Source of the DNA: an uncultured Rhodanobacteraceae bacterium
GTDB taxonomy: Bacteria; Pseudomonadota; Gammaproteobacteria; Xanthomonadales; Rhodanobacteraceae
Length of the DNA stretch: 13,598 nucleotides
NCBI GenBank assembly: GCA_913053815.1
Contig: CAJXGK010000020.1
Span: forward strand, 1 to 13,598
Direction: 5' to 3'
The notes under the pieces were generated by a model. It had not been told where the DNA came from, did not search any database, and saw nothing but the letters and a program-made list of their open reading frames with translations. The translations under genes were made by a program, and so were the position numbers. This document shows positions 2-13,598 of this stretch, piece after piece; positions within the stretch are counted from its first letter, which is position 1; every line of letters begins with the position of its first letter.

Positions 2-2125
2 GAGGCTATCGTGGTGGGTACTGCGGTAATCATCACTCTAGCATTGACGTTGTTCGCATCCTGGGCGATTGGTTTCACCATCAATCGGGTATCACTGTTT
101 GCGTTGATTTTCTCGATCGGAATTCTGGTTGATGATGCGATTGTGGTAATCGAGAACATTCATCGACATATTGCGCTGGGTAACCACAAGCTGCTGCAGA
201 CGATTCCGCAGGCTGTGGACGAGGTGGGCGGCCCCACGATTCTGGCCACTCTGACGGTGATTGCCGCACTGTTGCCGATGGCTTTCGTAGGTGGGTTGAT
301 GGGACCGTACATGCGCCCGATACCTATCAACGCCAGTGCCGGTATGTTGATATCGCTGGTCGTTGCGTTTGTGGTGACGCCGTGGATGGCCCTGCACTTG
401 CTGCGCAAGGTGGCCAAACAGCATGAGGATCATGCCACCGGGGCGGGTCATGCCCAGGAGTCCAAGCTCGACCAGAGCCTGTATAAACTATTTAATTATG
501 TAATGACGCCGTTTCTCAGCAGCCCCAAGGCACGTCGGAATCGCCGTCGTCTGTTCATGACGATGGGTATGCTGGTGGTGCTAGCTGCGAGTTTGGTGGT
601 CGTCAAGGGAGTCATTCTGAAGATGCTCCCCTTCGGCAACAAATCGGAATTTCAGGTGGTCTTGAATATGCCGGCTGGAGCCACCTTGGAGCAGACCAAC
701 CGGGTGCTGCTCGATATGACTCATGTCCTGGACAAAGTGCCGGAAGTCACCAATTACGAGGTGTATGCCGGGACCTCTGCCCCCATCAACTTCAACGGAC
801 TGGTGAGGCAGTATTACCTGCGCTCATTGCCCTATCAGGGTGATATCCAGGTCAATCTGATCAATAAACATGAGCGTGAGCGACAAAGTCACGTCATTGC
901 CATGTCGGTACGCCCGGCCATCGCGCGGATTGCCAAGCGCTTCGGGGCCCATGTGCAGATAGTTGAAGTGCCTCCCGGACCACCGGTAATGGCCCCAATT
1001 GTAGCTGAAATATACGGACCTAATTATCAACAACAACAAAAGGTTGCCTTACAAATAGAGAGCTTATTCGAAAAAACACCGGGTATTGTCGATATCGACA
1101 GCAGTGTCGAAAACCTTAAAGCCCGGCGTAAACTGGTGCTCGTGGATAAAACCCGGGCGGCGACGCTGGGGGTCTCCCAAGCGCAGATCGTCAAGGCTAT
1201 TCAGGCCGGTATGCATGGTGATCCGGTCACCTATCTTGAAGATGGCCATGCCCGTTATCCAGTGCCCATCGTTCTGCGACTTCCGGAGAGCAGTCTTGGC
1301 TCGATGAACAACGTGTTGAATTTGCGGGTTCGCTCCCGTTTCGGTCAGCTTATTCCTTTGTCCGAAGTGGTGCGGGTGGTGAGTGCCCCACTCGATCAGG
1401 CGATTTACCACAAGGATTTGTTGCCCTATACCTTTGTTACCGCAGACGATGCAGGTAGCGAGGACAGTCCCTTGTATGGGATGTTCCGCCTGGTGAGCGA
1501 AATTGCCGGGCGCACGTTTGCCGGCTATCACCTCGACCAGTACTTCATTGGTCGGCCTGCCAATGGGGCACATTTTTCCATCCATTGGAGCGGTGAATGG
1601 ACTATCACCTATGAGACCTTCCGCGACATGGGTATCGCGTATGGGTTTGGCTTGATCCTGATTTACCTGCTGGTGGTTGCGCAGTTTCGAAGTTACCTCG
1701 TACCGCTGATCATCATGGCCCCGATTCCACTGACCATCATTGGCGTGATGCCAGGACACTGGTTGCTTGGAGCACAATTTACGGCGCCTTCAATGATCGG
1801 TATGATCGCTCTGGCCGGTATCATCGTCCGCAACTCGATTCTGTTGGTGGATTTCATCAATCATGCGGTGCAGTCCGGCAAGCCTTTGGATACGGCGGTG
1901 ATCGAATCCGGTGCGGTGCGAGCGAAACCCATCATTTTGACAGCCATCGCGGCGATGTTGGGAGCGTTCTTTATTCTTGGTGATCCCATCTTCCAGGGTC
2001 TAGCCGTGTCGCTGATCTTCGGGGTGTTTATTTCCACTATATTGACCCTGCTGGTTATTCCGGTGCTGTACTTCAGCTACCTGCAGCATCATGGTGGCCG
2101 GGTACCTGGGACGGTAAAAGCCTAG
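2..2125 (+). CDS. RND-family efflux permease, 5' end outside window
   Basis: This is the inner-membrane pump of a tripartite, proton-driven efflux complex; about 707 residues are visible of the usual roughly 1040-1080, so the N-terminal third is missing. The frame is open from base 2, ahead of the first GTG at 11, so no start is inside the window. Seen: TM4 with GILVDDAIVVIENIH, whose adjacent aspartates (bases 131-136) are the proton-relay pair of HAE-type RND pumps; a second large periplasmic loop between roughly residues 210 and 540; and the C-terminal membrane bundle with GIIVRNSILLVDF and RAKPIILTAIAAMLG, both family signatures. The substrate cannot be told from this part. The membrane-fusion partner is probably upstream, outside the window. 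The gene ends cleanly with TAG at 2123. A local AT-rich patch near 1001-1080 is reported separately. Confidence 0.93.
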   Translation, partial: EAIVVGTAVIITLALTLFASWAIGFTINRVSLFALIFSIGILVDDAIVVIENIHRHIALGNHKLLQTIPQAVDEVGGPTILATLTVIAALLPMAFVGGLMGPYMRPIPINASAGMLISLVVAFVVTPWMALHLLRKVAKQHEDHATGAGHAQESKLDQSLYKLFNYVMTPFLSSPKARRNRRRLFMTMGMLVVLAASLVVVKGVILKMLPFGNKSEFQVVLNMPAGATLEQTNRVLLDMTHVLDKVPEVTNYEVYAGTSAPINFNGLVRQYYLRSLPYQGDIQVNLINKHERERQSHVIAMSVRPAIARIAKRFGAHVQIVEVPPGPPVMAPIVAEIYGPNYQQQQKVALQIESLFEKTPGIVDIDSSVENLKARRKLVLVDKTRAATLGVSQAQIVKAIQAGMHGDPVTYLEDGHARYPVPIVLRLPESSLGSMNNVLNLRVRSRFGQLIPLSEVVRVVSAPLDQAIYHKDLLPYTFVTADDAGSEDSPLYGMFRLVSEIAGRTFAGYHLDQYFIGRPANGAHFSIHWSGEWTITYETFRDMGIAYGFGLILIYLLVVAQFRSYLVPLIIMAPIPLTIIGVMPGHWLLGAQFTAPSMIGMIALAGIIVRNSILLVDFINHAVQSGKPLDTAVIESGAVRAKPIILTAIAAMLGAFFILGDPIFQGLAVSLIFGVFISTILTLLVIPVLYFSYLQHHGGRVPGTVKA

Positions 2126-2129
2126 CTAT

Positions 2130-2142
2130 AGACTGGCAGTCT
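2130..2142. other. Perfect 6-1-6 palindrome between the RND gene and umuD
   Basis: AGACTG-G-CAGTCT is a perfect inverted repeat 5 bases after the RND stop codon and about 117 bases before umuD. It could be a small hairpin at the end of the RND transcript (AGACT/AGTCT with a 3-base loop) or an operator. No T-run follows it, so it is not a standard intrinsic terminator. Confidence 0.35.
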
Positions 2143-2210
2143 TGAGGGTGTGAGCCCCGGCTGGTTTGGGGTAAGCAGGTCGTTCCAGTCGCTGCCATCG
2201 GACGGAAGAG

Positions 2211-2219
2211 TGCTATGCT
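2211..2219 (+). promoter_or_regulatory. Candidate extended -10 for umuDC
   Basis: TGCTATGCT matches the extended -10 pattern TGn-TATnnT about 40 bases before the umuD ATG. No good -35 is seen 16-18 bases upstream. I looked for an E. coli-type LexA box (CTGT-N8-ACAG) between 2126 and 2258 and found none, so SOS control of this umuDC copy is not shown by the sequence. Confidence 0.25.
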
Positions 2220-2258
2220 TGATTTGCGCTTCGCATTTCAAGCTAAGAGTATTGTTAT

Positions 2259-2837
2259 ATGTCTGCTTCCTCATCGCACGGTGGTGCCCGCCCCGGGGCC
2301 GGTCGCAAACCGGCCCGTGAATCGACCCGGCAAGTCCGGGTCCCGCTAAGCCAGGTCCCCATTGTCCGGGCCTATATCGATGCCAATCGCCAGCCTGCGC
2401 TGGCTCGTGATCCACAGCCGGTCAGCCTGATTCCTTCCACGGTCGCTCTGACGGTGTTCGCCAGCCGAGTACCGGCAGGCTTTCCAAGCCCTGCCGATGA
2501 TTATGTTGAAGATGTAATCGACCTGAATCGGCATCTGATTATTCAGGGGCATGAACCGGCCACCTTCATGGTGCGGGTGGAGGGTTGGTCGATGATTGGT
2601 GCAGGCATTCATGACGGGGATGAGATCATGGTCGACCGAGCCCTGACCCCCCGTCAGGGCGACATTGTTGTGGCCATCGTCAACGGTGATCTGACCGTCA
2701 AACGGCTCGGTAAGGTGGGCAATGAACTGGCGCTGCTGCCAGAAAACCCGCATTTTAGACCCAGAATTTTCAAGGGAGAGGAAACATTGGAAATCTGGGG
2801 GGTGGTGACTCGTTGCCTGCGGAAGTTGCGCCGATGA
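2259..2837 (+). CDS. umuD: UmuD-like S24 self-cleaving protein
   Basis: UmuD is cleaved by itself on RecA filaments to UmuD', which joins UmuC to form DNA polymerase V for translesion synthesis. The S24 peptidase domain is clear: an Ala73-Gly74 cleavage site in [13 protein letters not shown], the nucleophile Ser111 in [10 protein letters not shown], and the general-base Lys148 in GDLTVKRL. The Ser-to-Lys spacing of 37 equals that of E. coli UmuD (Ser60, Lys97). At 192 residues it is about 50 longer than E. coli UmuD. The extra N-terminus carries [13 protein letters not shown], a basic Gly/Arg motif seen in many long UmuD homologues and perhaps DNA-binding. The start has only a weak ribosome site (AAGAG, 2245-2249). 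Its TGA overlaps the umuC ATG. LexA itself is unlikely because no helix-turn-helix is visible and umuC follows. Confidence 0.92.
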
Positions 2838-4141
2838 ATGGTATGCCTTCAGGGCGTATCGCGCTGGTCGATGTGAATAACTTCTATTGCTCGTGCGAAC
2901 GGGTTTTTCGCCCGGACCTGGAGGGTGTACCGCTGGTGGTGTTATCGAATAACGACGGTTGCGTGGTCGCCAGGAGTGCTGAGGTCAAGGCCCTAGGAGT
3001 GCTGGTGGGGACCCCATGGTTTCAATTGCGCGATCTGGCCCAAAAACACGGCATCCTGGCCTTCAGCTCAAATTACACGCTCTACGGTGATATGTCCTCA
3101 AGAGTGATGCGCGTCATCAGCCAGTTCAGTCCGGAGCAGGAAATCTATTCGATTGACGAGGCTTTTCTCGATTTCAGACACCCGCCCCACTTGCCGTGGG
3201 TGACCACCGGCCAAGCCATTCGTGCCCGGGTGCGGCAATGGACCGGATTGTCGGTGTGTGTGGGTTTCGGCAGTACCAAGACCCTGGCTAAACTTGCTAA
3301 CCATGTAGCCAAACACAATCCGCAATGGCAGGGAGTTTGTGATCTGGGTGCATTAGCATCCCGGGATCTGGAATCCTTGCTGGCCACGATTGAGGTTCGT
3401 GAGGTCTGGGGAGTCGGCCGGCGCTTAGCGGTACAGTTGAGTGCTGCCGGGGTGCACAGTGTTGCCGACCTGCGGGCTTGTGACCCCCGGTGGATACGGT
3501 CGCGCTTCTCGGTCGTGCTCGAACGCACACTTAGAGAGCTCCAGGGCCGACCCTGTCTTGGCCTGGAAACCATGGCGCCGACCAGGAAGGAGATCATTAC
3601 TTCCCGCAGTTTTGGCTGTCCCATCTACCAGCTTGATGAACTTGCTGAAGCCGTACGGGAATATATGGCCCGCGCCGCGTGCCGATTGCGCCAGCAGGGC
3701 AGTGTGGCTGCCGCTGTGGGAGTATGGATCGAGACCAACCGGTTTCGTGAACAGGATCGGCAATATTCCCCATCGGCAACATGGCCTCTGGTGGTACCGA
3801 CAGATGATACCCGGTTACTCACCCAGACCGCTCAAGCGGTGCTACGGACAGTCTTCCGTTCCGGCTATCGTTATGTCAAAGCCGGTGTCATGCTGCTTGA
3901 TTTGCGGGCGCGTGGGGATCTCCAGCAAGGTGACCTGTTGGGGGTCGAGTCAGCGGCCATGGTGGCACGGCGTGCCGCACTCATGGCAACCCTGGACCGG
4001 GTGAATGCCAAGTGGGGGTCGGGGACTCTGGGAATCGGTAGTGCAGGATTAAAGAGTGACCGGCGCTGGACGGTGGCTCGCGGCAAACTGTCGCCAGCGT
4101 ATACTACCAAGTGGTCGGAACTGCGCCGGGTAAGGGCCTAA
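2834..4141 (+). CDS. umuC: UmuC, Y-family DNA polymerase V catalytic subunit
   Basis: This is the polymerase subunit of Pol V, which copies past DNA lesions with low fidelity when bound to UmuD'. Motifs in order, numbered from the 2834 ATG: metal-binding Asp13 in [15 protein letters not shown], the nucleotide-binding [11 protein letters not shown], the catalytic Asp108-Glu109 in [10 protein letters not shown], the helix-hairpin-helix [10 protein letters not shown], and the little-finger domain with [14 protein letters not shown]. The C-terminus [12 protein letters not shown] matches the UmuC tail. Length is 435 residues against 422 in E. coli, so it is full length. An in-frame TTG at 2813 exists, but the ATGA overlap with umuD and GGAAG at 2821-2825 favour 2834. 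The position of the E. coli clamp-binding QLNLF reads QQGDLLG here, which may bind the clamp weakly. No dinB-type tail is seen. Confidence 0.95.
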
Positions 4142-9325: not shown

Positions 9326-9641
9326 CTGTGAGCGACTGTGGGGGTATCGAAGGCCGGTATCCGATTCGTGTTGGGATCTGGATACAACACGGGGAATCTC
9401 TAAAAACCGTCACGAGCGGACTGAGTGCAAACAGGTGTCCAGGTAATGCGGGCCGGTACGGGTGGTGTTGACGACGTCTTGGGAGTTAATCTAGCGATAC
9501 AGGATAGGCGTGAGTCCGTTTGGAGGAAGCGCGTGCCGTTGCAGCAGGTTGAAGGTCTGGAAACGAATGGTGGGGATTGAGCCCCCATCGTGCCGAAACA
9601 ACCCTACCCAGGGTAGACAGAGCAAATAGCCCGCGCATAAC

Positions 9642-10079
9642 TCAGGAAAGATGGCAGTATGCCGCAATCTCTGCCTGGGTAGCCTTGAGCTGTTTTGCGC
9701 GCTGCTTGGTATCGATCGCTATCGATTTGCCCTTAGCGCTGAGGGTGTTAAGTGCCTGTTTGCTTTCCAGAAGACGCAGGTTTTTGTGTAGCCCGTCGCA
9801 ATACTTGGTGCGGTTGGAGCGAGTATCGGCCATGGCTACCCTGTTGCCCGCTTGCCGCAGTCGATGGTTGGGAACAAGATTTCGGGATGGGATAGCGGTG
9901 TTGCCACCTATCTTGGTACTGCTGTTGATGAGCAGTACCTTGTAGGGGATGCCTTGGGAGGGTGGAGATTGCGAAAAATTGCGAACTCCACCATTGTCGA
10001 TCCAGGTGTAAACCTGGGCAACGGCCAGTGGAACCCAAAACAGCAGTAACATAACAGTAAAGAGAATGGAGCGGCGCAT
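9642..10079 (-). CDS. Secreted DUF4124-domain protein
   Basis: This is a small exported protein of unknown function. From ATG 10079 it has a signal peptide, MRR followed by the hydrophobic SILFTVMLLLFWVPLAVA, with a likely cut between Ala21 and Gln22. Immediately after comes QVYTWIDNGGVRNFSQSPP, the hallmark of DUF4124 (pattern vYkWvDxxGvxhfsxxPP). The remaining roughly 100 residues are basic, with Lys/Arg-rich helices near the end, and match nothing I recognise. An in-frame start further upstream (10163) would put 28 unlikely residues before the signal peptide, so 10079 is chosen; its ribosome site (AGCGAG) is weak. Length is 145 residues. It is divergent from pssA with a shared 117-base control region. 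Location is predicted to be the periplasm. Confidence 0.8.
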   Translation of the reverse strand: MRRSILFTVMLLLFWVPLAVAQVYTWIDNGGVRNFSQSPPSQGIPYKVLLINSSTKIGGNTAIPSRNLVPNHRLRQAGNRVAMADTRSNRTKYCDGLHKNLRLLESKQALNTLSAKGKSIAIDTKQRAKQLKATQAEIAAYCHLS

Positions 10080-10100
10080 AGATAGCTCGCTGCGATGGTA

Positions 10101-10118
10101 TGCGGTAACTCTACCGCA
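10101..10118. promoter_or_regulatory. Perfect 7-4-7 inverted repeat in the divergent promoter region
   Basis: TGCGGTA-ACTC-TACCGCA is an exact inverted repeat in the 117-base gap between the DUF4124 gene (-) and pssA (+). Its place between divergent genes suggests an operator that controls one or both, or a leader hairpin. Confidence 0.4.
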
Positions 10119-10148
10119 ACTGCTGGGTACCGGCATGTGAAAGGGTAG

Positions 10149-10175
10149 GCAGTGTGGCGGCATGGTTTACACTGC
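10149..10175. promoter_or_regulatory. Inverted repeat just upstream of pssA
   Basis: GCAGTGT (10149-10155) and ACACTGC (10169-10175) are exact reverse complements around a 13-base centre, ending 21 bases before the pssA ATG. The right arm includes TTTACACT, which could double as a promoter element. It may be an operator or a leader hairpin near the start codon. Confidence 0.35.
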
Positions 10176-10196
10176 TATTGAAATCGAGACCCATCC

Positions 10197-10973
10197 ATGA
10201 ATGAACTACCCACCCGCTTCACCTCATCCCGCCGAGGCATCTATCTGTTGCCGAACCTGTTCACAACTGGAGCGATGTTCGCGGGTTTTTACGCCATTGT
10301 GGCGGCTATCGATGGTTATTTCGCACATGCCGTGGTCGCAGTGTTCGTAGCGGCCATTTTAGATGGCCTGGATGGACGGATTGCCCGTCTGACGCATACC
10401 CAGAGTGAGTTCGGTGTGCAATACGACTCGTTGTCGGATCTGGTCAGCTTCGGCCTGGCCCCCAGTCTTGTGTTGTACACCTGGTCCCTGGCAGATTTGC
10501 ATCACTACGGACCGGTATGGGGCAAGATCGGCTGGACGGCGGCCTTTCTGTATACAGCTTGTGCGGCGTTACGACTGGCTCGGTTTAACACCCAGGTTGG
10601 AGTTATTGACAAGCGTTATTTTCAGGGGTTGGCCAGCCCCGCTGCGGCAGGATTGGTCATGAGCTATGTATGGGCCGCATCAAGCCTTGGCTTTTCCGGC
10701 GGCACACTGGTTTTTCTGACCCTGGCCCTGATCGTGCCAACGGGTTTACTTATGGTAAGCCGTTTTCGTTACATCAGTTTCAAAGCCTGGCCGGTAGGTG
10801 AAAAAGTACCCTTTCTGGCTATTTTGGTGGTGGTGCTGGTGCTGGTAGCGCTGACCATTGACCCGCCACGGGTATTGTTTGTGGTATTCCTTCTCTATGT
10901 GTTGTCCGGGCCGGTGTGGACCATATGGGTGCGGGCCACACATCGCCGCCGGCGTCGAGGTACTCGTGCCTGA
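10197..10973 (+). CDS. pssA: CDP-diacylglycerol--serine O-phosphatidyltransferase
   Basis: This integral membrane enzyme makes phosphatidylserine from CDP-diacylglycerol and serine, the committed step to phosphatidylethanolamine. The CDP-alcohol phosphatidyltransferase signature is complete: Asp56, Asp59-Gly60, Ala63-Arg64, Gly73, Asp77 and Asp81 in DGLDGRIARLT and GVQYDSLSD. The N-terminus RRGIYLLPNLFTTGAMFAGFYA is typical of the type II (Bacillus-like) PssA, not of the peripheral E. coli PssA, which belongs to another superfamily. Six to eight hydrophobic helices are visible, and the protein ends in a basic tail, THRRRRRGTRA. Length is 258 residues. ATG 10197 begins MNELPTRF; the ribosome site is weak. 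The TGA overlaps the ATG of the next gene, so it leads a three-gene operon with a holD-like gene and rimI. Confidence 0.95.
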   Translation: MNELPTRFTSSRRGIYLLPNLFTTGAMFAGFYAIVAAIDGYFAHAVVAVFVAAILDGLDGRIARLTHTQSEFGVQYDSLSDLVSFGLAPSLVLYTWSLADLHHYGPVWGKIGWTAAFLYTACAALRLARFNTQVGVIDKRYFQGLASPAAAGLVMSYVWAASSLGFSGGTLVFLTLALIVPTGLLMVSRFRYISFKAWPVGEKVPFLAILVVVLVLVALTIDPPRVLFVVFLLYVLSGPVWTIWVRATHRRRRRGTRA

Positions 10974-11527
10974 TGGCAGCTATGAACACGGTGAGGCCAC
11001 CTCTTTCCGCATGGCGGGATCGATGTCTGCGCGAGCTGGGTGTACTGCCGCTGCACCTGCGCCAGGCGTCAGTTACCACGACGGTCCCTATTGAGGGGGC
11101 GCCGCGGGTTGGGGCAGAAAAGTCATGGGCATTCAAGCCGCCGGCTACAATTCCGGATGTCGCCTTAGCTTCCCCACCCCCTACCAAGCAGAAGGTGCCG
11201 TTGCTGATTATTTTGCCTGTTGGTGCCGCATCGCAGCCGCACCAGCAGACCTTGTTACGCAATGCTTTGCTGGCCTTACCAGCAGAAATGCAACGGGCAC
11301 CCTGGCTTGAGGCCAGTGCAGCGGAAGCGCAGATTGGGGCTGCGCAGGCCTATCTCGTATTGGGTCAGGAAGCCGCAGCGGTGCTGGAGCGGACATTGCC
11401 TCGGAGGGGGGCCGATAGCTGTCTGATCGTCCATGCCGACGCCCCTGGCGATATTCTGGCCGAGCCTGCTCGCAAACGCGGCTTGTGGTTGGCGGTAAAA
11501 ATACTGTTGCGGGGGCGGTCAGTGTAA
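10973..11527 (+). CDS. holD: Probable DNA polymerase III psi subunit (HolD-like)
   Basis: Psi links the clamp loader to chi and SSB in the replicative holoenzyme. The assignment is from context and weak similarity: rimI follows directly with an overlap, as holD-rimI do in E. coli. The N-terminus LSAWRDRCLRELGVLPLHLR resembles the psi start (W-x-LxxLGIxxWxLR), and the C-terminal SCLIVHADAPGDILAEPARKRGLWLAVK matches the psi pattern with a conserved LAxPxxKRxxW. The 184 residues are longer than E. coli psi (137) because of a Pro/Ala-rich middle (about 50-100) and fast divergence, which is usual for psi. The start at 10973 is taken from the TGATG overlap with pssA; ATG 10982 is possible. If not psi, it is an unknown protein tied to rimI. 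Confidence 0.62.
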   Translation: MAAMNTVRPPLSAWRDRCLRELGVLPLHLRQASVTTTVPIEGAPRVGAEKSWAFKPPATIPDVALASPPPTKQKVPLLIILPVGAASQPHQQTLLRNALLALPAEMQRAPWLEASAAEAQIGAAQAYLVLGQEAAAVLERTLPRRGADSCLIVHADAPGDILAEPARKRGLWLAVKILLRGRSV

Positions 11528-12012
11528 TGGTTGCCGTACTCGTCAGAGAACCCTTGCAGATCCGCCGGATGCAGCGTGAGGACCTCGCTCAGGTTGCCTT
11601 CATAGAGGCTATGGCCTACGAATTTCCATGGAGCCCGGGTATTTTCCGCGATTGCCTGCAGGCCGGCTATCACTGCTGGGTACTGGTTACCGGCCATCAT
11701 GTTTGCAGTTATGGCGTGCTATCGGTGACTGCTAGGGAAGCTCATTTGCTTAATCTCTGTGTTGCGCCTGCCGAACAGGGACTCGGTCTTGGTCGGCGGA
11801 TGCTGTCACGCATGCTTGATATGGCCCGTTGGCATGACACGGACAAGGTTTTTTTGGAGGTGCGTCCTTCCAACCGGCGAGCCGTCCGGTTGTATGAAAA
11901 GTATGGGTTTACCCGTATCGGCAAGCGTCCGCGTTATTACCCGACACGCCAGGGACGTGAGGATGCCATGGTGATGGTACTGAACCTGCACCCTCCACAG
12001 GGGAGTGGCTAA
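11527..12012 (+). CDS. rimI: Ribosomal protein S18-alanine N-acetyltransferase
   Basis: RimI is a GNAT enzyme that transfers an acetyl group from acetyl-CoA to the N-terminal alanine of ribosomal protein S18. Seen: the substrate-loop FPWSPGIF (33-40), the acetyl-CoA pyrophosphate-binding loop EQGLGLGRRML (83-93), the catalytic Glu111 in FLEVRPSNRRAV and Tyr123 in RLYEKYGF. The Glu-Tyr spacing of 12 equals that of E. coli RimI (Glu103, Tyr115). The C-terminal RYYPTRQGREDAMVM is diagnostic of RimI within the GNAT family. Length is 161 residues against 148 in E. coli, with a short extra N-terminus and tail. The ATG at 11527 overlaps the TAA of the holD-like gene (TAATG), with a G-rich stretch upstream as ribosome site, so translation is probably coupled. 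It converges on the following minus-strand gene. Confidence 0.95.
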   Translation: MVAVLVREPLQIRRMQREDLAQVAFIEAMAYEFPWSPGIFRDCLQAGYHCWVLVTGHHVCSYGVLSVTAREAHLLNLCVAPAEQGLGLGRRMLSRMLDMARWHDTDKVFLEVRPSNRRAVRLYEKYGFTRIGKRPRYYPTRQGREDAMVMVLNLHPPQGSG

Positions 12013-12014
12013 AA

Positions 12015-12094
12015 CCCTGAATCCGGTTGTTTGTTTATTCGGGAGCCGTGGGGATTTTGCAGTAAGTGAGGGAGGATGACTGGCAGGTCACTTA
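12015..12094. other. Hairpin-forming gap between convergent genes
   Basis: The 100-base gap between rimI (+) and the minus-strand synthetase holds two potential stems: CCC(T)GAAT (12015-12022) with ATTCGGG (12037-12043), and TAAGTGA (12063-12069) with TCACTTA (12088-12094). Neither is followed by a strong T-run. They are the only terminator candidates for the two converging transcripts. Confidence 0.3.
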
Positions 12095-12112
12095 ACTGAA
12101 ATGGGTAAGCCC

Positions 12113-13598
12113 TTATTCGCTCAGCCTCTCAACCTGCTTGCGCAACACTGCGACTTGTCGGCTCCATTCCCCGAGTCGATGGTGTTCCTGTTCGACAACC
12201 TCGGTTGGGGCGTTAGCGACAAAACGCGGGTTGCCAAGTTTACCCCGACACTTGCCGATTTCCTGCTTAATACGGTGGATCTCCTTCCGTAACCGGGCCT
12301 GCTCGGCAGCGATGTCAATCAGGCCTTCAAGAGGCAGGTGGGCCTTGGCTCCGAGCAACGGCGTGGCGGCCGAAGCCGGTGGGGTCGTATTTCCCGGAAG
12401 TATCTCGATACGTTCGATGCGACACAGTGCCTGCAGCATGCTCTGGATCGCGGTGAATCGTTCCGGGTTATCCAGGCGGCCCTCAATCAGCAACGGCACT
12501 GGACGTCCGGGAGCGATACTCAGCTCACTGCGCAGGCTGCGGACCTGGGTCACGGCTTCGATTAGGGTGTTGATCTCAGTAACGGCTGCTTGCGTTATCG
12601 CGGGCTCGGCTGCGACGCTATCCGCAGCAGGAAGGGTCGCCGGTTGGCTCGGATTGGGGTAACACCGTTCCAGGATACTGTTCTGCTGCAATTCGAGTCG
12701 CGGTGCGACTTCATGCCAGATTTCTTCGGTGATGAAGGGAATAAGCGGATGCAGTGCGCGCAGAATACCTTCGAGGACGGCCAGCAGAGTGTGCCGGGTT
12801 GACGCCGCGGCGGCTACGTCGCTGCCATTGAGTGCCAGCTTGGCCAGTTCCACGAACCAGTCGCAGTAGTCGTTCCAGACGAACTGGTACAGGTCTTGGG
12901 CCAGCAAGTCGAAGCGGTAGCTCGAAAAGTTTTCCGCAACACTCTGCATCGTGTCCCGGAAGCGGTTGTCAATCCATCTCTCGGCGGCGGTGTGCAGAAC
13001 CGGCTCGTCATGGGGGGTGAATCCCTCGGTATTCATCAGTACAAAGCGGGCGGCGTTCCACAACTTGTTGCAGAAGTGTTTGTAGCCTTCGGCACGCTTG
13101 AGATCGAAGTTGATGGTGCGGCCGTAGGTGGCCAGGGCCGCGAAGGTGAAGCGCATGGCATCGGTGCCGACTGCCTGGATGCCATAGGGGTAGTCTTTGC
13201 GGATGCGCTTTTCGACCTTCTTGCGAACCTGTGGAATCAGTAGCGAGGCGGTAGATTTTTTCACCAGATCTTCGAGGCCGATGCCGTCGATCAGGTCCAG
13301 CGGGTCGAGCGTGTTGCCCTTCGACTTGGACATCTTGGCGCCGTCCTTGAGCACCATACCCTGGGTCAGCAGATTGGCGAACGGCTCGTCTGTGTGGACC
13401 AGCCCCTCGTCGCGCATCAGTTTGTGGAAGAAGCGCGCGTAGAGCAGGTGCAGAATGGCGTGCTCGATGCCGCCGATGTATTGGTCGACGGGCAGCCAGT
13501 AGTGCGCCCGCTCGTCGAGCATCGCCGTATCGGCGCCCGGCGCGCAATAACGCGCGTAGTACCACGAGGACTCGACGAAGGTGTCGAAGGTGTCGGTC
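12113..13598 (-). CDS. valS: Valyl-tRNA synthetase C-terminal part fused in frame to a leucyl-tRNA synthetase segment; partial
   Basis: The frame is open to the window end, so the start is missing; ATG 13522 is internal. From about 13310 down to the TAA at 12113 the protein is Val[18 protein letters not shown], the [22 protein letters not shown] block, [17 protein letters not shown], the anticodon-binding domain ([15 protein letters not shown]), and the C-terminal coiled coil ([18 protein letters not shown]). About 399 residues after KMSKSKGN match the E. coli length. Before that point (13313-13598) the protein is Leu[38 protein letters not shown] and FHKLMRDEG are LeuRS catalytic-core signatures absent from ValRS. 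The switch sits at KMSKSKGN (13313-13336), shared by both families. No frame break is seen. A real protein of this kind would pair a LeuRS active site with a ValRS anticodon domain, so an assembly chimera is more likely. The ValRS identity of the 12113-13310 part is certain. Confidence 0.9.
13300..13336 (-). other. LeuRS/ValRS junction at the shared KMSKSKGN motif
   Basis: These bases encode [12 protein letters not shown]. Upstream on the minus strand the protein follows LeuRS (GMVLKDGA then KMSKSKGN); downstream it follows ValRS ([10 protein letters not shown]). By hand count GC is 164 of 258 bases (64%) on the LeuRS side (13341-13598) and 149 of 260 (57%) on the ValRS side (13041-13300), so composition also steps here. 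Confidence 0.85.

Follow-up and report, generated by a model that had tools for sequence, protein, structure and literature searches.

The minus-strand open reading frame at positions 12113-13597 of the window (the whole of contig C20, 13598 bases) encodes LeuRS as far as the motif KMSKSKGN and ValRS from there on. Judged from sequence comparisons, this frame is almost certainly not a real feature, and would instead consist of parts of two genes from two species that were spliced together at a contig end.

The open frame at the end of contig C20

Contig C20 is one of 437 in a draft genome that totals 2355805 bases, with a completeness of 81.08% and a contamination of 3.59%. The frame comprises 494 codons and runs off the contig end. 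It is matched by two NCBIfam models, TIGR00396 (leuS_bact) over residues 1-305 (170.1 bits, model positions 485-767) and TIGR00422 (valS) over residues 65-473 (263.8 bits, model positions 506-860). Both scores fall below the curated cut-offs of 548.4 and 612.1 bits, respectively; a break at a contig end lowers any such score. LeuRS chains of solved structure align from the first residue of the frame, with 1h3n_A reaching 100.6 bits from residues 1-84 alone, and the solved ValRS chains find their best stretch further along, at residues 141-489 for 1gax_A and 172-443 for 4xkz_A. An earlier note on this DNA had reported a switch from LeuRS to ValRS at KMSKSKGN, and the model matches and chain alignments agree with that reading.

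The putative foreign leuS segment occupies 13313-13598 on the minus strand (95 codons and one base), ends in the KMSKSKGN codons at 13336-13313, and reaches the contig end; it is recognized by its identity to the leuS of genome G674 and by its third-position GC. The join zone, at 13310-13336 on the same strand, consists of the KMSKSKGNT codons, which are nearly alike in leuS and valS, and is placed by the best single breakpoint. The 3' part of what appears to be the genome's own valS, including the stop codon, lies at 12113-13312 on the minus strand, an assignment based on identity to the valS of genome G010 and on TIGR00422. The neighboring gene is rimI, at 11485-12012 on the plus strand (TIGR01575, 125 bits against a cut-off of 86.4), which sits inside a stretch collinear with G010.

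The two pieces also differ in composition. GC is 62.8% in the LeuRS piece, 59.1% in the ValRS piece, and 55.3% in the 47 codons from about the join, and third-position GC is 0.905 in the LeuRS piece versus 0.707 in the ValRS piece. The rise from 57% to 64% GC given in the earlier note was thus right in direction and roughly right in size.

Elsewhere on the contig, an RND efflux permease gene at 2-2125 is cut at the other end of C20, with the first third missing (ACR_tran positions 358-1018 of 1021). At 2259-4141, an S24 peptidase gene overlaps a gene for an IMS-family polymerase with DUF4113, a pair that looks like an ordinary umuD-umuC type.

The ValRS half is native to the genome

Among the matches listed, the nearest genome by ValRS is G010, a member of the same genus that is 99% complete and carries a full-length valS frame of 1028 codons on its contig C5. 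DNA identity to this gene is 92.5% over the window's ValRS half (1102 of 1191 bases), protein identity is 92.9% (369/397), and the alignment, taken from the contig end, begins at the KMSK codons. Window positions 9460-13336 are collinear with G010 at an 85% match, and the ValRS side is therefore native; by its position within this collinear stretch, rimI would anchor the 3' end of valS in this genome. What the window lacks, compared with the full-length G010 ValRS, is the part upstream of KMSKS, in place of which it has leuS sequence. The ValRS of G010 carries TGFDIIFFW upstream of KMSKS, and that of a further genome, G448, carries both LDTWFSSALWPF and TGFDIIFFW there. The upstream part encoded by contig C20 is therefore not ValRS, as had been claimed from the sequence alone.

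Differences from G010 are denser near the motif, with 16 over the 120 bases that open the ValRS side, counted from the KMSK codons, compared with 93 in 1218 overall. Six of the first seven of these differences, counted from the motif, are changes from A/T to G/C. Just inside the ValRS half, the 37 bases at 13308-13272 depart from G010, the nearest sister, and are identical to the valS of G008 and G011, which belong to the same genus. The excess may be ordinary variation, or related strains may have been joined in a second short switch; either way, it says nothing about where the LeuRS half came from.

The earlier note had proposed that the assembly be searched for the missing pieces. Our searches of the genome's own assembly found neither the 5' part of valS nor the 3' part of leuS, and they also returned no second valS. 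The other class I synthetase fragments in the assembly are a leuS start (C54) and two pieces of ileS (C63 and C160), and weak matches to class I core or ValRS models occur on C36 and C137. The genome's own leuS and ileS are, like valS, broken at contig ends, which may be chance given about one contig end per 2.7 kb. The G010 stretch that lies beyond valS (locus L127, 7268-8001) corresponds to an internal part of contig C2 (14633-15366 of 20374), so this search supplied no contig-end link to the broken valS.

The LeuRS half is most unlikely to be the genome's own leuS

The start of the genome's own leuS lies at the end of contig C54, where it covers TIGR00396 positions 1-139. It is 91.7% identical to the leuS of G010 (453/494), which is a full-length frame of 968 codons on contig C3, and it sits in a 2.6-kb stretch of C54 that is collinear with G010 at 84%; a thioredoxin-like gene, identified by eye, adjoins the leuS start in both genomes. 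The LeuRS half of the window, by comparison, is only 73.6% identical to G010 leuS (176/239). Third-position GC is 0.905 in the window's LeuRS half, 0.628 in the genome's own leuS start, and 0.618 in G010 leuS. The leuS start and the window piece cover different parts of the gene, and the comparison is thus made through G010 rather than directly. Because of the gap in identity to G010 and in third-position GC, it is most unlikely that the LeuRS half of the window represents the leuS of this genome.

G010 itself contains a second, truncated LeuRS frame, at 1482-3239 on the minus strand of locus L128 (contig C121, 4464 bases). This frame covers model positions 1-551, breaks off after FFHKLMRD, and is 65% identical (365/559) to the main LeuRS of G010; either a further splice or a contig of foreign origin may account for it.

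A donor within the same order was rejected. In a scan of the LeuRS piece against 398 genomes of the order, 375 of which gave a match, the best identity among the matches listed, with the window excluded, was at most 81%; one or two candidates were scored in nearly every genome. A scan of the class with residues 1-200 as query (369 genomes, the genome's own included, and 366 with a match) gave G674 as the best place after the window. This genome belongs to the same class, probably the Gammaproteobacteria judging by the names of close loci, but lies outside the order, and its leuS is a complete 864-codon frame with a third-position GC of 0.916. To the left of KMSK, the window and G674 leuS agree at 247 of 261 bases (94.6%), and the LeuRS piece agrees with the G674 protein at 90/95 residues. 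About 95 of the 864 codons of this leuS are represented in the window, which lacks the C-terminal part of LeuRS. In G674, the sequence that matches the window's valS half, at 72%, lies on a separate contig (C12). When a 5001-base donor region was compared with the genome's own assembly, the only matches were 312 bases in C20 and a 74% match that corresponds to the native leuS on C54.

These comparisons support a bacterium from another order within the class as the source of the leuS half. As the ValRS half fits G010, and the LeuRS half fits G674 but not G010, the two halves of the frame derive from different organisms; the two sides were matched to different genomes through relatives rather than through the source genomes themselves. 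The comparisons with G010 and G674 thus uphold the earlier interpretation of the frame as a misassembly between leuS and valS, with the refinement that the leuS half would come from a bacterium of another order, so that two species have been joined as well as two genes.

The join at the KMSKS motif

Agreement between the window and the two reference genes changes at the motif. In 30-base steps taken from the contig end, agreement with G674 leuS is 27-30 bases until the motif and 26 at the motif, then 17, 8, 11, and 11, and agreement with G010 valS is 4-15 bases before the motif and 24-28 from the motif on. The best single switch from G674 leuS to G010 valS falls at 13319-13310, about 280 bases from the end of C20, as expected from the claim that the join lies near the contig end in a stretch that leuS and valS share. 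In the 30 bases from 13328, G674 leuS matches 26 and G010 valS matches 27.

We also compared the 21-mers of the LeuRS piece with 123 other loci, a set that was chosen partly for likeness to the window sequence and that does not include G674. Up to 10 loci shared the 21-mers that start at the contig end (13598-13592), up to 6 those at 13480-13475, and up to 9 those at the motif (13357-13330); 13462-13460 and 13419-13418 gave single-locus matches, and all other positions gave none. Sharing of 21-mers at each end of this piece is expected if an assembly path crosses and halts at ambiguous nodes.

Recurrence of the hybrid in other genomes

The hybrid did not recur in another genome or locus among the 369 genomes of the class and 146 loci searched. 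In the class scan, the window scored 461 bits and the next place 214 bits, and no other hybrid was present among the matches listed, where a close hybrid would be expected to rank near the top. Among the 146 loci, many of which overlap, both halves were found in six, all of them copies of this window. A match over residues 2-199 on contig C41 of G448 was considered as a second hybrid and proved to be an ordinary ValRS with its own core. Among the papers listed in a literature search, titles and abstract openings likewise mention no natural LeuRS-ValRS hybrid.

Explanations for the join

We hold with very high confidence that the two genes were joined artificially at the end of the contig. The assembler is the most likely cause, and this reading includes the case of a chimeric library molecule. 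In the proposed mechanism, the path from the contig interior would trace the native valS back as far as KMSKSKGN and, because the codons of this motif are nearly alike in leuS and valS, could pass at that point into leuS from another bacterium, one of high GC within the same class. It would then run for about 260-280 bases and halt at the next stretch common to several leuS genes. A path that enters a foreign leuS at the motif and halts at a well-shared stretch would explain both ends of the segment. When metagenomes are assembled with de Bruijn graphs, a sequence shared by two species becomes a node with two incoming and two outgoing paths, and a chimeric node left unpartitioned yields a contig that changes species at that point, as described in the parts of the MetaVelvet-DL report consulted (PMC8171044). 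The window resembles the chimeric contigs described there in that the species changes at a common sequence (PMC8171044). It differs in that the shared stretch connects separate gene families, leuS with valS, so that the gene changes as well.

The same sequence would result if a chimeric molecule, joined at the shared motif during library amplification, had been faithfully assembled. Template switching at short identical stretches would create such a join, and the tail, at 286 bases, is comparable in length to a read or fragment. The end of the contig at a 21-mer shared among leuS genes, however, suits a graph node better than the random end of a fragment, and we consider this special case of an artificial join rather unlikely. 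We infer that the join was made in assembly rather than in a library molecule, and that both source organisms were present in one sample.

A genuine recombinant gene, in which a leuS segment gained by horizontal transfer entered valS by recombination at KMSKS and brought together the catalytic half of LeuRS and the anticodon-binding half of ValRS, is very improbable. Compatible with such a gene are the open frame, which stays in register, and a leuS source from another order, which transfer would permit; but an open frame is also expected wherever the two genes are joined in register at KMSKS, and beyond the open frame we found nothing in favor of the real recombinant synthetase that had been raised as the alternative to misassembly. 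The contig stops about 280 bases past the join, at a 21-mer common to 9-10 of the 123 other loci; no hybrid tops the searches in other genomes and loci; and of the 5001-base donor region the assembly holds only the 312 bases in C20, apart from the 74% match of the native leuS. Nor does the assembly contain a second valS, and such an event would leave the genome with none, unless one lies in the missing part of a draft that is 81% complete. Slightly less probable still is a splice of the genome's own leuS with its own valS. The own leuS is indeed broken, stopping at family-model position 139 where C54 ends, and the searches recovered no 3' part of it. This candidate was nevertheless rejected on DNA identity and third-position GC, as the own leuS start and the window piece differ in their identity to G010 leuS (91.7% versus 73.6%, compared through G010) and in third-position GC (0.63 versus 0.905).

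Significance

If it were true, a recombinant class I synthetase of this kind would combine a core that activates leucine with recognition of valine tRNA. As an artificial join at the contig end, the frame has no biological significance, and it serves as a clean example of a motif shared by paralogues, KMSKS, joining two genes and two species. An in-frame splice at a contig end could lead automatic annotation to report a new hybrid enzyme. Where two genes seem to be fused at a shared motif close to the end of a contig, comparison with a sister genome should come before the fusion is believed.
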